A stretch of DNA of 42,020 bases, taken from positions 1 to 42,020 of the forward strand of contig JACREH010000018.1 of assembly GCA_016218345.1 (NCBI GenBank). Direction: 5' to 3'. Below are positions 11,028 to 41,721 of the stretch, in pieces (the stretch's first letter is position 1; each line of letters opens with the position of its first letter). The translations under genes and the position numbers were made by a program. Under the pieces are notes generated by a model. It was given only the letters and a program-made list of their open reading frames with translations, did no database searches and was not told where the DNA came from. Source of the stretch: Gammaproteobacteria bacterium. GTDB taxonomy: Bacteria; Pseudomonadota; Gammaproteobacteria; Acidiferrobacterales; UBA6901.

Positions 11028-11056
11028 TTGATTTTTCACGGTAAAAACCGTATCCT
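11028..11056 (+). promoter_or_regulatory. Candidate sigma70-type promoter upstream of rpsM (alpha operon promoter position)
   Basis: ttgatt (11028-11033), 17 nt spacer, tatcct (11051-11056). Confidence 0.6.
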
Positions 11057-11100
11057 TTCGGGTTTTCGCGCGTCAGGCGCATTGTCGGAGATAGGCTGAG

Positions 11101-11457
11101 ATGGCTCGTATCGCCGGGATAAATATCCCCAATCACAAGCACATCGACGTCGCGTTGACGTCGATTTACGGCATCGGCCGGCCGCGCGCCCGCCGGATCT
11201 GCACCAACGCCGGCGTGGTCGTGACCGCCAAGGTCAAGGATCTCACCGATGCCGAGGTCGAGAAGCTGCGCACCGAGGTCGCCAAGTTCACGGTCGAGGG
11301 CGATCTGCGCCGCACCGTGTCGATGAACATCAAGCGCCTCATGGACCTCGGCACCTATCGCGGCATGCGCCATCGCCGCGGTCTGCCGGTGCGCGGCCAG
11401 CGCACCAAGACCAACGCCCGCACCCGCAAAGGCCCGCGCAAGGCCGTTCGCAAGTAA
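11101..11457 (+). CDS. rpsM: 30S ribosomal protein S13
   Basis: [34 protein letters not shown]... [28 protein letters not shown]. Confidence 0.98.
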
Positions 11458-14126: not shown

Positions 14127-14153
14127 TACGGTTTCTAGCGCTGCGCTTTACTG

Positions 14154-14183
14154 AAAGGCCGGGTTCTCACCCGGCCTTTTCGT
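14154..14183 (+). terminator. Rho-independent-like terminator after rplQ
   Basis: aaaggccggg-ttctca-cccggccttt followed by tcgttt. Confidence 0.85.
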
Positions 14184-14185
14184 TT

Positions 14186-14789
14186 GTATCGCCTAGCGGC
14201 GATAGATTTTATTCTCGCGGTTCCCGCACCGCAGGCGGGTTACTTTCGTTTCGGCGAAAGTAACCAAAGCCATTTTTCCCCATCGTCGCACCCCATACCA
14301 AAGCGCGAGGCGCTTTGGTATGGGGTGCCCTGCGCTCCTCGGTCAGCGAGGGGGTTTTTCGACAGTACGTCCGTGTACTGCGAAAAACGCGCGCATCCCA
14401 TGCGCGCCCCTAGCGGGCCTCATCCTCGTCGACCTCCGGTGCTCGGTGCGACTCAAGGGGCGAGACCCAAACCTAAAAAACCAACCCCAACCAAATGCTT
14501 TAAGGTTTTGACGTCGGTTTTGACGTTCCCCCCTTTCCGGCGCGCCGAGCATCGGAGGCCGAGGCGGATCAGGCCCGACAGGGGCGCGTATGGGATACGC
14601 GCGTTGGCCGCAGGACAGGGACAGTCCTGTCGGCCAACCCCCGCCTCGGCCGAGAAGCGCAGGGGATTTCGCGCCGGAGGGGAGGCGCTTCTTTGGGTAC
14701 TTTCTTGTCGCGACAAGAAAGTACCCCGCCGGCGGTGCGGGAACCGCAAGTATAAATTCCATCGCCGAAGGCGATGCTCGCAGGCGATA
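14186..14789. repeat. Large multi-hairpin intergenic element, copy 1 (about 604 bp)
   Basis: Terminal gtatcgcc.../...ggcgata hairpins; gcggttcccgcaccgc inverted near both ends; two internal inverted homologous arms; same element inverted at 24848-25547. Confidence 0.85.
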
Positions 14790-18636: not shown

Positions 18637-20004
18637 TTGAAACGTAACCCCATGAATTCCCTGGAGCGGCGCGCGGTTGCCTTGCTCGCCTCGATCTACG
18701 CGCTGCGCATGGCCGGGCTGTTCCTGATCCTGCCGGTGTTCGCCCTGTATGCCCAGGACCTCACGGGCCACACGCCGCTCTTGATCGGCATCGCCATCGG
18801 CGCCTACGGCCTCACCCAGGCGATCCTGCAAATCCCCTACGGCATGCTCTCCGATCACCTCGGGCGCAAGCCGGTGATCGCCGCCGGCCTGCTCATCTTC
18901 GCCATCGGCAGCATCATCGCCGCCACCGCCACCAGCATCGAGATGGTGATCGTCGGTCGCGCGGTGCAGGGTGCGGGCGCGATCGCCGCCGCGATCATGG
19001 CCATGGTCTCGGACCTGACGCGCGAGGAGCAGCGCACCAAGTCCATGGCGATTATCGGCATGACCATCGGCGCGTCGTTCGTGTTGTCGCTTATCATCGG
19101 CCCGGTGCTGGACGGCGTGATCGGCGTGCCCGGCATCTTCTGGCTGACCGGCATCCTGGCCGTGCTGGCGATCGGCGTGATCCTGTTCCTGGTGCCGACC
19201 CCGGTGCGCATCGAGCGCGACCGCTCGCGCAATCTGCGCGAGGAGTTCGCGCGCATCCTGCGCGACACCCAGCTGTTGCGCCTGGACGCCGGCGTGTTCA
19301 CCCTGCACCTGGTCATGACCGCGATGTTCGTGGTGTTGCCGGGGGAGATCGTGCGCCACCTCGGGCTTCCCGCGCCCGCCCACTGGGAGCTGTACCTGCC
19401 GGTGATGCTGGCCGGCTTCGTCGCCATGCTGCCGTTCCTGATTACCGCCAACCGCAAGCGTGTCACGCGCAAGGTGCTGGCCGGGGCGGTGGCGGCGCTG
19501 ATCGTGGCGCAAGGGGTGTTTTTCTTCGGCCACACCACTCACACCGGGCTGATCGCCGGCCTGTGGCTGTTCTTCGCGAGCTTCAGTCTGCTGGAGGCGA
19601 TGCTGCCGTCGCTGGTCTCGCGCCTGGCGCCGGGCGAGAGCAAGGGCGCGGCGATCGGCGTCTATTCGAGCGCCCAGTTCCTCGGCGCCTTCGCCGGCGG
19701 CGCGCTCGGCGGCTATTTATCGGGCGTGTTCGGCGCGAGCGGCGTGTTCGTGCTGGCCGCGGCGGTGCTGGGTGCGTGGCTGCTGCTCATCCTCGGCATG
19801 CGCGAGCCGCGCTTCCTCGTCACCCGCGAGCTCCGCATCGGCACCCAGACCCCGGCGCAAGCCGAAAAACTCGCCAAGAAACTCGCCGCCGTCCCGGGCG
19901 TGGCCGAGGCGATCGTCATCGCCGAAGAGGGCATTGCCTATCTCAAGGTCGACACGCACGCGCTGGATGAGCGGGCGTTGAGTAAGGTTTCGGCGCTGGG
20001 GTGA
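18637..20004 (+). CDS. MFS transporter, YajR-like, with C-terminal ferredoxin-fold-like domain
   Basis: 12-TM MFS pattern (GAYGLTQAILQIPYGMLSDHLGRKPVI); C-terminal AEKLAKKLAAVPGVAEAIVIAEEGIAYLKVD; divergent from uvrA. Confidence 0.85.
   Translation: MKRNPMNSLERRAVALLASIYALRMAGLFLILPVFALYAQDLTGHTPLLIGIAIGAYGLTQAILQIPYGMLSDHLGRKPVIAAGLLIFAIGSIIAATATSIEMVIVGRAVQGAGAIAAAIMAMVSDLTREEQRTKSMAIIGMTIGASFVLSLIIGPVLDGVIGVPGIFWLTGILAVLAIGVILFLVPTPVRIERDRSRNLREEFARILRDTQLLRLDAGVFTLHLVMTAMFVVLPGEIVRHLGLPAPAHWELYLPVMLAGFVAMLPFLITANRKRVTRKVLAGAVAALIVAQGVFFFGHTTHTGLIAGLWLFFASFSLLEAMLPSLVSRLAPGESKGAAIGVYSSAQFLGAFAGGALGGYLSGVFGASGVFVLAAAVLGAWLLLILGMREPRFLVTRELRIGTQTPAQAEKLAKKLAAVPGVAEAIVIAEEGIAYLKVDTHALDERALSKVSALG
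19849..20004 (+). repeat. 156 bp direct repeat, copy 1 (3' end of the MFS gene)
   Basis: accccggcgcaagccgaaaaactcgccaagaaactcgccgcc...; matches 22064-22219. Confidence 0.93.
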
Positions 20005-22063: not shown

Positions 22064-22219
22064 ACCCCGGCGCAGGCCGAAAAACTCGCCAAGAAACTCG
22101 CCGCCATCCCGGGCGTGGCCGAGGCCATCATCATCGCCGAGGAGGGCATCGCCTACCTCAAGGTCGATGCCGGCGCGCTGGATGAGCGGGCGTTGAATAA
22201 GTTTTCGGTCGCGTTGTGA
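22064..22219 (+). pseudogene. Detached duplicate of the MFS C-terminal coding segment
   Basis: TPAQAEKLAKKLAAIPGVAEAIIIAEEGIAYLKVDAGALDERALNKFSVAL*, 156 bp as in 19849-20004; no upstream MFS body. Confidence 0.9.
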
Positions 22220-24823: not shown

Positions 24824-24847
24824 GATCACGCTTAATTGTTCGTTTTT

Positions 24848-25547
24848 GTATCGCCTGCGGCGATAGTTTTTACTTGCGGTTCCCGCACCGCGGGCGGGGT
24901 ACTTAGACTCAGACCCTCCCTGGTCTTCGCCCTGACGGGCAGACCTTAACGCGGTCTGGCCAAATTCGCTCCCAGCGATTTTGTCTTGTCGCGACAAGAA
25001 AGTACCCAAAGAAGCGCCTCCCCTCCGGCGCGAATACCCCTGCGCTTCTCGACCGAGGCGGGGGTTGGCCGACAGGACTGTCCCTGTCCTGCGGCCAACG
25101 CGCGTATCCCATACGCGCCCCTATCGGGCCTGATCCGCCTCGGCCTCCGATGCTCGGCGCGCCGGAAAGGGGAAACGTCAACAGCCCAACCATCAAAACC
25201 ACAACATCTAAGCCCTAATGTTTTTGGGTGTGGGGTCAGTTTTTTTGGTTCGGGTGTCGCCCCCTTGAGTCGCACCGAGCACCGGAGGGCGGCGAGGATA
25301 AGGCCCGCATGGATTTATCATGCGGGGCGCGTATGGGATACGCGCGTTTTTCGCAGTACACGGACGTACTGTCGAAAAACCCCCTCGCCGACCGAGGAGC
25401 GGAGGGCACCCCACCCTAACGCGCAAAGCGCGTTAGGGTGGGGTGCGACGATGGGGAAAAATGGCTTTGGTGACTTTCGCCGAAACGAAAGTCACTCGCA
25501 CGCGCGGCGACACGCGCATGAAAAATGACATCGCCGGATGGCGATAC
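24848..25547. repeat. Large multi-hairpin intergenic element, copy 2 (about 700 bp, inverted relative to copy 1)
   Basis: Reverse-complement architecture of 14186-14789, plus about 80 bp extra near the left end (tagactcagaccctcc...). Confidence 0.85.
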
Positions 25548-25584
25548 AAAATACGAACAGCGGGCGTTGCCTACCCGGCAACGC

Positions 25585-33610: not shown

Positions 33611-33895
33611 ATGCCGATCTACGAATACAGCTGTCAGGCCTGCGGCCACTCGCTCGAGGCGATCCAGAAGTTCAGCGACCCAGCGCTGCGCGAGTGCCCG
33701 GCCTGCCACAAGCTGGAATTGAAGAAACAGATTTCCGCCGGCGGCTTTCAGCTCAAGGGCAGCGGCTGGTACGAAACCGATTTCAAGGGCGCCAAAAAAT
33801 CCGCGGCCGCCGAACCGGCCGCATGCCCGGTTTCCGATGCCGCACCCGCCAAGAAAACCGGCGGTTGCGGGGGCGGCGGTTGCGGTTGTCAATAA
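33611..33895 (+). CDS. FmdB family zinc ribbon protein
   Basis: MPIYEYSCQACGHSLEAIQKFSDPALRECPACHKLELKKQISAGGFQLKGSGWYETDFK. Confidence 0.93.
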   Translation: MPIYEYSCQACGHSLEAIQKFSDPALRECPACHKLELKKQISAGGFQLKGSGWYETDFKGAKKSAAAEPAACPVSDAAPAKKTGGCGGGGCGCQ

Positions 33896-34090
33896 TGAAG
33901 CCCTACTTCGCATTCGCTACGTTCGTCTTGCCATAAAAGATGAAGCCCGATCATGTCTTTGTCGGAACAAAGTTCATAGGACGAGCTGCGCTCCGTTCGT
34001 CTTGCCAAGAATGAAGCCCTACTTCGCTCCGCTCCGTTCGTCTTGTCAAAAATGAAGCCCTACTGCGCTCCGCTCCGTTCGTCTTGTCAT
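33895..34090. repeat. Imperfect tandem repeats, about 40-47 bp (atgaagccctacttcgctccgctccgttcgtcttg)
   Basis: Units begin at 33895, 33940 (interrupted), 34011 and 34052. Confidence 0.85.
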
Positions 34091-34097
34091 AAGAAGG

Positions 34098-41577: not shown

Positions 41578-41721
41578 TTGCCGCAGAGACGCAGAGAACG
41601 CAGAGAGAAGAGGGCATGAATCCTGAAACGACGATATCGCAGATTTATGGTGAAGATGCCTGGAGTGTTTTTTCTGACTGAAGAATTGCTGTTCTCTGCG
41701 TCCTCTGCGTCTCTGCGGCAA
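41578..41721. repeat. 144 bp element with terminal inverted repeats ttgccgcagagacgcagag.../...ctctgcgtctctgcggcaa
   Basis: Near-perfect terminal inverted repeats in the ruvB-ybgC gap. Confidence 0.88.

Follow-up and report, generated by a model that had tools for sequence, protein, structure and literature searches.

What kind of element occurs twice, in opposite orientation, behind rplQ and ssb on one gammaproteobacterial contig, and what holds its sequence in place? The window (the whole stretch of DNA analysed, 42,020 nt) is one entire contig (C78) of a 1.85 Mb MAG that is 80.6% complete. An initial annotation had proposed a non-coding element that could be mobile, a structured RNA, or both. 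Both natures are supported by the dispersed copies, six element-free orthologous sites and strong covariation reported below. That reading missed the arm as the basic unit, the self-complementarity of the first copy, the divergent pairing of arms, the CsrA-type loops and the class-wide spread.

Architecture of the two copies

Copy 1 (14186..14775, plus strand) starts 59 nt past the end of rplQ (14126) and copy 2 (24846..25549, minus strand) starts 49 nt past the end of ssb (24796). Alignment in reverse complement revealed complementarity of 98% over 189 nt, 86% over 202 nt and 72% over 102 nt and spanned nearly the full length of both copies, which confirms that the element is present twice. 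Copy 1 also matched its own reverse complement end to end (68%), and thus represents two inverted arms around a linker. Copy 2 is inverted relative to copy 1 and owes its greater length to an extra hairpin module of about 80 nt.

The basic unit is a cloverleaf arm of roughly 280 nt, found solo or in divergent pairs. From outside to inside, an arm comprises a terminal hairpin of the ATCGCC/GGCGAT type, a subterminal module in one of two variants (GCGGTTCCCGCACCGC or TGCGCGTTTCGCCGCGCG), a P0b hairpin of the type GGGTACTTTC...GAAAGTACCC, and a cloverleaf core made up of the closing stem P1, P2 in left-type arms, and P3 enclosing P4, P5 and an optional P6. The left terminal hairpin of copy 1 (ATCGCC-TAGC-GGCGAT, 14188..14203, plus strand) is followed inward by a T-rich stretch and is terminator-like for transcription from rplQ, whose own intrinsic terminator (14153..14180, plus strand) lies just outside the element. 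The right terminal hairpin is ATCGCC-GAA-GGCGAT (14761..14775, plus strand). The pattern ATCGCC-N2-8-GGCGAT was identified six times in the window against 0.07 expected, with four of the six matches at element ends, which bears out the terminal hairpins of the initial annotation. Inverted motifs near the ends had also been reported, with a degenerate version at the right end of copy 2. This held for copy 1, where the subterminal motif GCGGTTCCCGCACCGC (14217..14232, plus strand; reverse complement loop GCGGGA) is mirrored by GCGGTGCGGGAACCGC (14732..14747, plus strand). The motif is present at one end only of copy 2, and the other end is not degenerate but has another module, TGCGCG..CGCGCG, which is the norm for most copies in the genome. 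The P0b hairpins of the left and right arms of copy 1 are GGTTACTTTCGTTTCGGCGAAAGTAACC (14238..14265, plus strand) and GGGTACTTTCTTGTCGCGACAAGAAAGTACCC (14695..14726, plus strand), the latter being the best conserved across genera.

A covariance model, R1, was built from 18 arms of the MAG and used to locate the cores, which are given here with the strand that carries their GGA loops. In copy 1, the left core lies at 14264..14466 (minus strand; 174.0 bits, E 1.3e-41) and the right core at 14525..14696 (plus strand; 187.3 bits, E 5.2e-45), separated by an A/T-rich linker (14467..14524). The left core contains P2 (14288..14328, minus strand), P4 (14355..14387, minus strand; a conserved bulge and the CsrA-type minus-strand loop C-ACGGAC-G) and P5 (14389..14407, minus strand; a GGGA loop). 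The right core contains P5 (14584..14602, plus strand; GGGA within the loop) and P4 (14604..14637, plus strand; GGAC-AGGGACA-GTCC, with GGA in the loop). In copy 2, the left-type arm, which has the optional P6 hairpin, was found at 25255..25470 (plus strand; 161.6 bits) and the right-type arm at 25006..25177 (minus strand; 184.1 bits). The extra module of this right arm (about 24903..24983, minus strand) includes a hairpin with an ANGGAN hexaloop (AGACC-AGGGAG-GGTCT, 24911..24926, minus strand), and the same or longer modules occupy the equivalent position at C26b, C92, C71 and C91. Across the genome, extra hairpin modules are inserted at fixed points, and those at C26b, C92, C71, C59 and C31 are longer than the one in copy 2.

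The window holds further repeats. A 145-nt direct repeat (90% identical; 19849-19993 and 22064-22208, 2215 nt apart) is unrelated to the element. Short, degenerate tandem repeats that recur about every 41 nt (GCTCCGCTCCGTTCGTCTTGTCAAAAATGAAGCCCTACT...) lie at 33869-34096, and a 29-nt inverted repeat, TTGCCGCAGAGACGCAGAGAACGCAGAGA, 97% complementary, lies within 41578-41721 and is resembled by a GCCGCAGAGACGCAGAG string on contig C32. The Rfam family of the alpha operon ribosome binding site gave a sub-threshold match at 11031-11133 (29.1 bits, cut-off 38), which falls in the expected ribosomal protein region.

Spread, insertion and fold

BLAST with copy 1 against the host genome, a check the initial annotation had suggested, returned 98 aligned pieces on dozens of contigs, and R1 gave 44 arm matches in the MAG. 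Many contigs begin or end within element copies, so the true copy number is above this count. The copies follow many kinds of genes, with their hairpin ends mostly close to gene 3' ends; the idea that a position after highly expressed genes is special was not upheld as a rule. Solo arms in the MAG are of the left type only. Two of them (L022 and L063, on contigs C35 and C85) share homologous flanking genes, and one was probably copied together with its surroundings. There is also a second arm type with GTTGTT-like loops and without GGA. It was seen at L083, L085, L087, L117, L130 and L136, where loops such as GCCGC[GTTGTTT]GCGGC replace the GGA loops, and it is sometimes paired with a GGA arm.

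Beyond the host genome, R1 detected arms in 24 of the 57 genomes available for the order. The class was sampled with 369 genomes, for each of which only seven candidates were scored; 49 of these genomes, from 41 of 271 genera, had matches. The P0b palindrome is also present in MAG records, including Candidatus Muproteobacteria bacterium and Gammaproteobacteria bacterium. No match was detected in phages or E. coli, and a plasmid search revealed one related element, in Comamonas odontotermitis (NZ_CP083452.1; R1 35 bits). A P0b-like hairpin, CTTTGGTTACTTTCTTTGGGCAAGCAAAGAAAGTAAC, was noted on the Ilyobacter polytropus plasmid pILYOP01 (L208 1201-1242); it occurs at six places in this Fusobacteria plasmid, where the flanking sequence is AT-rich.

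An orthologous site without the element had been named as a sign of mobility. All six family relatives examined have rplQ, SAM_HAT (which encodes a SAM hydroxide adenosyltransferase) and uvrA side by side in this order, with 100-158 nt of element-free sequence between rplQ and SAM_HAT, compared with 687 nt here. A terminator-like hairpin follows rplQ in most of the relatives, and the element sits right behind such a hairpin in the host. Because the six relatives keep this interval without the element, the copy after rplQ is an insertion specific to the host lineage. The copies have inverted TTTGTATCGCC...GGCGATACAAA ends; no target-site duplication was recognised at them by eye and no parent transposon was found. 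The lone Y1 transposase gene of the MAG (L047 1474-2142 from G000:C92, at C92:18160) lies between inverted AAAGTAGAATGTCCCCATTTTTTC sequences, and a link to the element was rejected because these flanks are unrelated to it.

Repeats of this kind are a common source of spurious protein annotations in proteobacteria. A Pfam search of six ORFs across both window copies gave no match and the substitutions follow base pairing; a protein-coding function was therefore rejected, in line with the earlier failure to find a convincing ORF. To measure covariation, 20 left arms from the host genome were aligned with MAFFT without structure. In this alignment 21 of 66 pairs changed on both sides, and the covariation score was 0.193 compared with 0.077 for shuffled alignments and at most 0.034 with slid partners. 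For 40 class-wide arms the score was 0.635 (0.155 shuffled, at most 0.082 slid), in an alignment that was fitted to the model, which makes the test on the host's own arms the stricter one. P2 is swapped almost wholesale between copies, its sequence varying in most of them while the pairing is retained. These analyses make it very likely that the element is under selection as a folded nucleic acid. The stem changes in the host's arms are mostly two-sided (75 cells), with few one-sided states, as concerted correction would also give. A selfish repeat without cellular function could maintain its palindromes in this way if quasi-palindrome-templated repair or replication rewrote one half of a stem to match its partner. 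Such correction does not fix a one-strand loop sequence over 165 different stems or hold the loop spacing within 25-29 nt (both described below), and we consider this explanation highly improbable.

An Rfam search of the window at E values up to 1 revealed no family matching the element copies; the sole contact was a sub-threshold sX6 match that touches only the first 15 bases of the element. A description of the element was not found in the open-licence literature, and subscription papers may describe such repeats. The family, suspected from the start to be undescribed, is real, mobile and structured, and apparently undescribed.

Conserved GGA loops and a candidate ligand

Stems are freely replaced between arms; loops are not. 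GGA loops cap P4 and P5 on the plus strand of right arms and the minus strand of left arms, mostly as C-A(N)GGA(N)-G. A set of 183 distinct arms from the MAG, the order and the class contains 316 distinct stems, of which 165 end in a GGA loop and three in a TCC loop; counted by hairpin, there are 266 GGA versus 4 TCC loops, where dinucleotide shuffles gave 16.6 and 10.9. The form CA(N)GGANG fits 113 of the 165 distinct GGA stems. The class-wide loci were selected with R1, and as this model itself includes GGA, loci found only via P0b or BLAST were checked, giving 9 GGA versus 1 TCC. Copies in the host genome found by BLAST rather than by the model contain 109 GGA-loop hairpins versus 6 TCC. 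GGA is also present in most of the variable inserted modules (AGACC-AGGGAG-GGTCT, GCC-ACGGAT-GGC, ATAC-AGGGAG-GTAT and GCGC-AGGGAT-GCGC); one inserted module type has the opposite loop polarity. The distance between the two GGA loops of an arm has a median of 27 nt and a 5-95% range of 25-29 nt (151 arms). Even without CsrA, the element is an unusually clean case of free stem exchange under strict loop conservation.

Terminator-like sites number 9 and 7 in the copies compared with 1.2-1.3 in shuffles, and a terminal hairpin with a T-rich tail faces inward at three of the four element ends in the window. These counts, together with the location of the terminal hairpins mostly near gene 3' ends, would suit an element whose hairpins act as bidirectional terminators or as mRNA stabilisers like REP sequences, the GGA loops being incidental. 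A terminator needs a single hairpin, however, not a cloverleaf with fixed loop spacing, and incidental loops sit poorly with the 165 to 3 excess of GGA over TCC on unrelated stems; a pure 3'-end role is in our judgement quite unlikely.

The loops instead resemble a known ligand site. The CsrB repeat CAGGA(U/A/C)G sits in hairpin loops, the SELEX consensus for CsrA is RUACARGGAUGU, RsmE structures contain an ANGGAN hexaloop, and one CsrA dimer bridges two sites 10-63 nt apart (PMC7652899). The arm loops and their spacing agree with all four, and arm C51 holds an exact SELEX match, GTACAGGGATGT, in its reverse complement. The stems of the arms are long, unlike the short stems favoured by SELEX sites (PMC7652899). 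Since the loops match the published CsrA/RsmA site, C-A(N)GGA(N)-G, we infer that CsrA is the ligand of the arm loops, and we think it rather probable that the arms of this mobile element serve as binding modules for the CsrA family. An anti-Shine-Dalgarno reading of the TCC strand was dropped because it is the GGA strand that matches a known ligand consensus.

The distribution of csrA was compared with that of the arms. Of 60 relatives, 56 have the gene, as do 41 of another 46 arm-bearing genomes of the class; it was not found in the host MAG (80.6% complete). This was initially taken as a refutation of the CsrA reading. In the relative G001, csrA is preceded by a lysC-like gene (names assigned by position and length), and a search of the MAG for the lysC-like protein gave a weak partial match only. 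As this neighbour is missing too, the absence of csrA is probably due to incompleteness of the MAG. Two relatives, G010 and G054, have no csrA match and arms without GGA loops, a pattern that fits the CsrA reading, several csrA-positive genomes also being without GGA. In genome G178 (95% complete, 470 contigs), GGA arms are present and csrA gave no match, a case that would count against the CsrA reading if this absence is real. CsrA-domain matches are unusually numerous in the relatives G036, G007 and G017, some of them below full length.

Paired arms in related genomes are arranged with their GGA strands divergent in 39 cases and convergent in 3, of which two are in one genome and one is a weak match. 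Seven divergent pairs are separated by 0.7-1.3 kb containing one or two ORFs; these encode HEPN AbiU2, T5orf172, an ion-channel domain, DUF4760 and three proteins without a clear family. The arm-bracketed genes lie at L166 1768-2466, L164 286-1314, L199 953-1531, L173 840-1319, L147, L160 and L077, and divergent arms around a single gene resemble a gene cassette held by structured ends. A gene between divergent arms, in either direction, is transcribed outward into a GGA-sense arm. No sigma-70-like promoter was found in the linker. The GGA strand of solo arms is often antisense to both neighbouring genes. In a full-length transcript of either window copy the two arms are predicted to pair with each other, so that 0-1 GGA loop remains, and the CsrA proposal therefore needs arm-only RNAs.

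Mobility and structure are shown by these results, and the proposed function is as follows. The element is a mobile, non-coding unit of one or two structured arms of about 280 nt, and paired arms diverge such that the GGA-loop strand points away from the centre and towards the terminal hairpin. An arm transcribed outward, which is speculative, would fold as a cloverleaf (the closing stem P1, P2, P3, and P4 beside P5) displaying two C-A(N)GGA(N)-G loops about 27 nt apart, a geometry that one CsrA/RsmA dimer could bridge. Outward transcripts might arise within the linker or from an arm-bracketed gene, and could either titrate CsrA, a sponge action that is likewise speculative, or carry a CsrA-addressed 3' end. 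The inward-facing terminator-like ends would shield the element from neighbouring genes. On a broader and more tentative reading, which we find plausible without counting it as probable, these would be class-wide transposable CsrA/RsmA-binding RNA modules, sometimes bracketing a single cargo gene, that rewire a global regulator by transposition; the arms would give outward transcripts a CsrA-binding end, or titrate CsrA.

The folded molecule could also be DNA. REPIN- or MITE-like hairpins, extruded as cruciforms or single strands and recognised at the GGA loops by a transposase or recombinase encoded elsewhere, would account for the mobility, the inverted pairs, the solo arms beside pairs and the terminal hairpins, and recognition of single-stranded DNA would also give strand-specific loop conservation. 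A wobble comparison aimed at the structured strand does not single out that strand or RNA as the folded molecule: G·U versus A·C was 15 versus 9 among distinct cases free of model bias, and the 181 versus 73 in model-fitted alignments is biased by the fit. Against such DNA hairpins, the loop consensus is the published CsrA site, most of the variable inserted modules carry a GGA loop that a transposase end would not require, the only Y1 transposase gene of the MAG has unrelated flanks, and target-site duplications were not recognised by eye. We therefore regard DNA hairpins as unlikely and retain the CsrA reading. If the loops bind CsrA, a transposable element is spreading binding sites for a master regulator of post-transcriptional control among the genomes of Gammaproteobacteria, and the family would explain a large class of intergenic repeats that lack annotation and are hard to assemble. 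The open literature gave no record of mobile DNA being linked to the Csr/Rsm system.

Comparison with known systems

REP sequences and REPINs with RAYT transposases are structured units that occur solo or in inverted pairs, dispersed between genes and without a gene of their own, and the element is similar in each of these respects. In contrast to REPs and REPINs, its arms are about ten times longer and multi-branched with conserved loops, and no linked Y1 (RAYT) transposase lies between the same repeats. The element shares with MITEs its non-autonomous nature, inverted ends, many dispersed copies and an orthologous site that lacks it; it has no identified parent transposon or target-site duplication and, unlike MITEs, is structured and covarying over its whole length.

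Two RNA groups provide the closest parallels to the loops. The TwoAYGGAY RNA (RF01731), proposed to bind CsrA (PMC4333381), likewise has two adjacent hairpins with AYGGAY loops. Its model scored 37.6 bits against a class-wide arm, below the cut-off of 43, with one partial match in 16 loci, and the larger arm, the arm pairing and the mobility belong to the element and not to the TwoAYGGAY family. The sponge RNAs CsrB/CsrC and RsmX/Y/Z are hairpin arrays with A(N)GGA loops resembling CAGGA(U/C/A)G at a spacing suited to a CsrA dimer (PMC7652899), and the arms, too, present several GGA hairpin loops with the CsrA consensus. The Rfam CsrB, CsrC and Rsm families gave no match to the element loci. 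Compared with these sponge RNAs, the arm is a cloverleaf with two or few sites and no known promoter, and the element is mobile, built of inverted paired arms and dispersed in up to dozens of copies.
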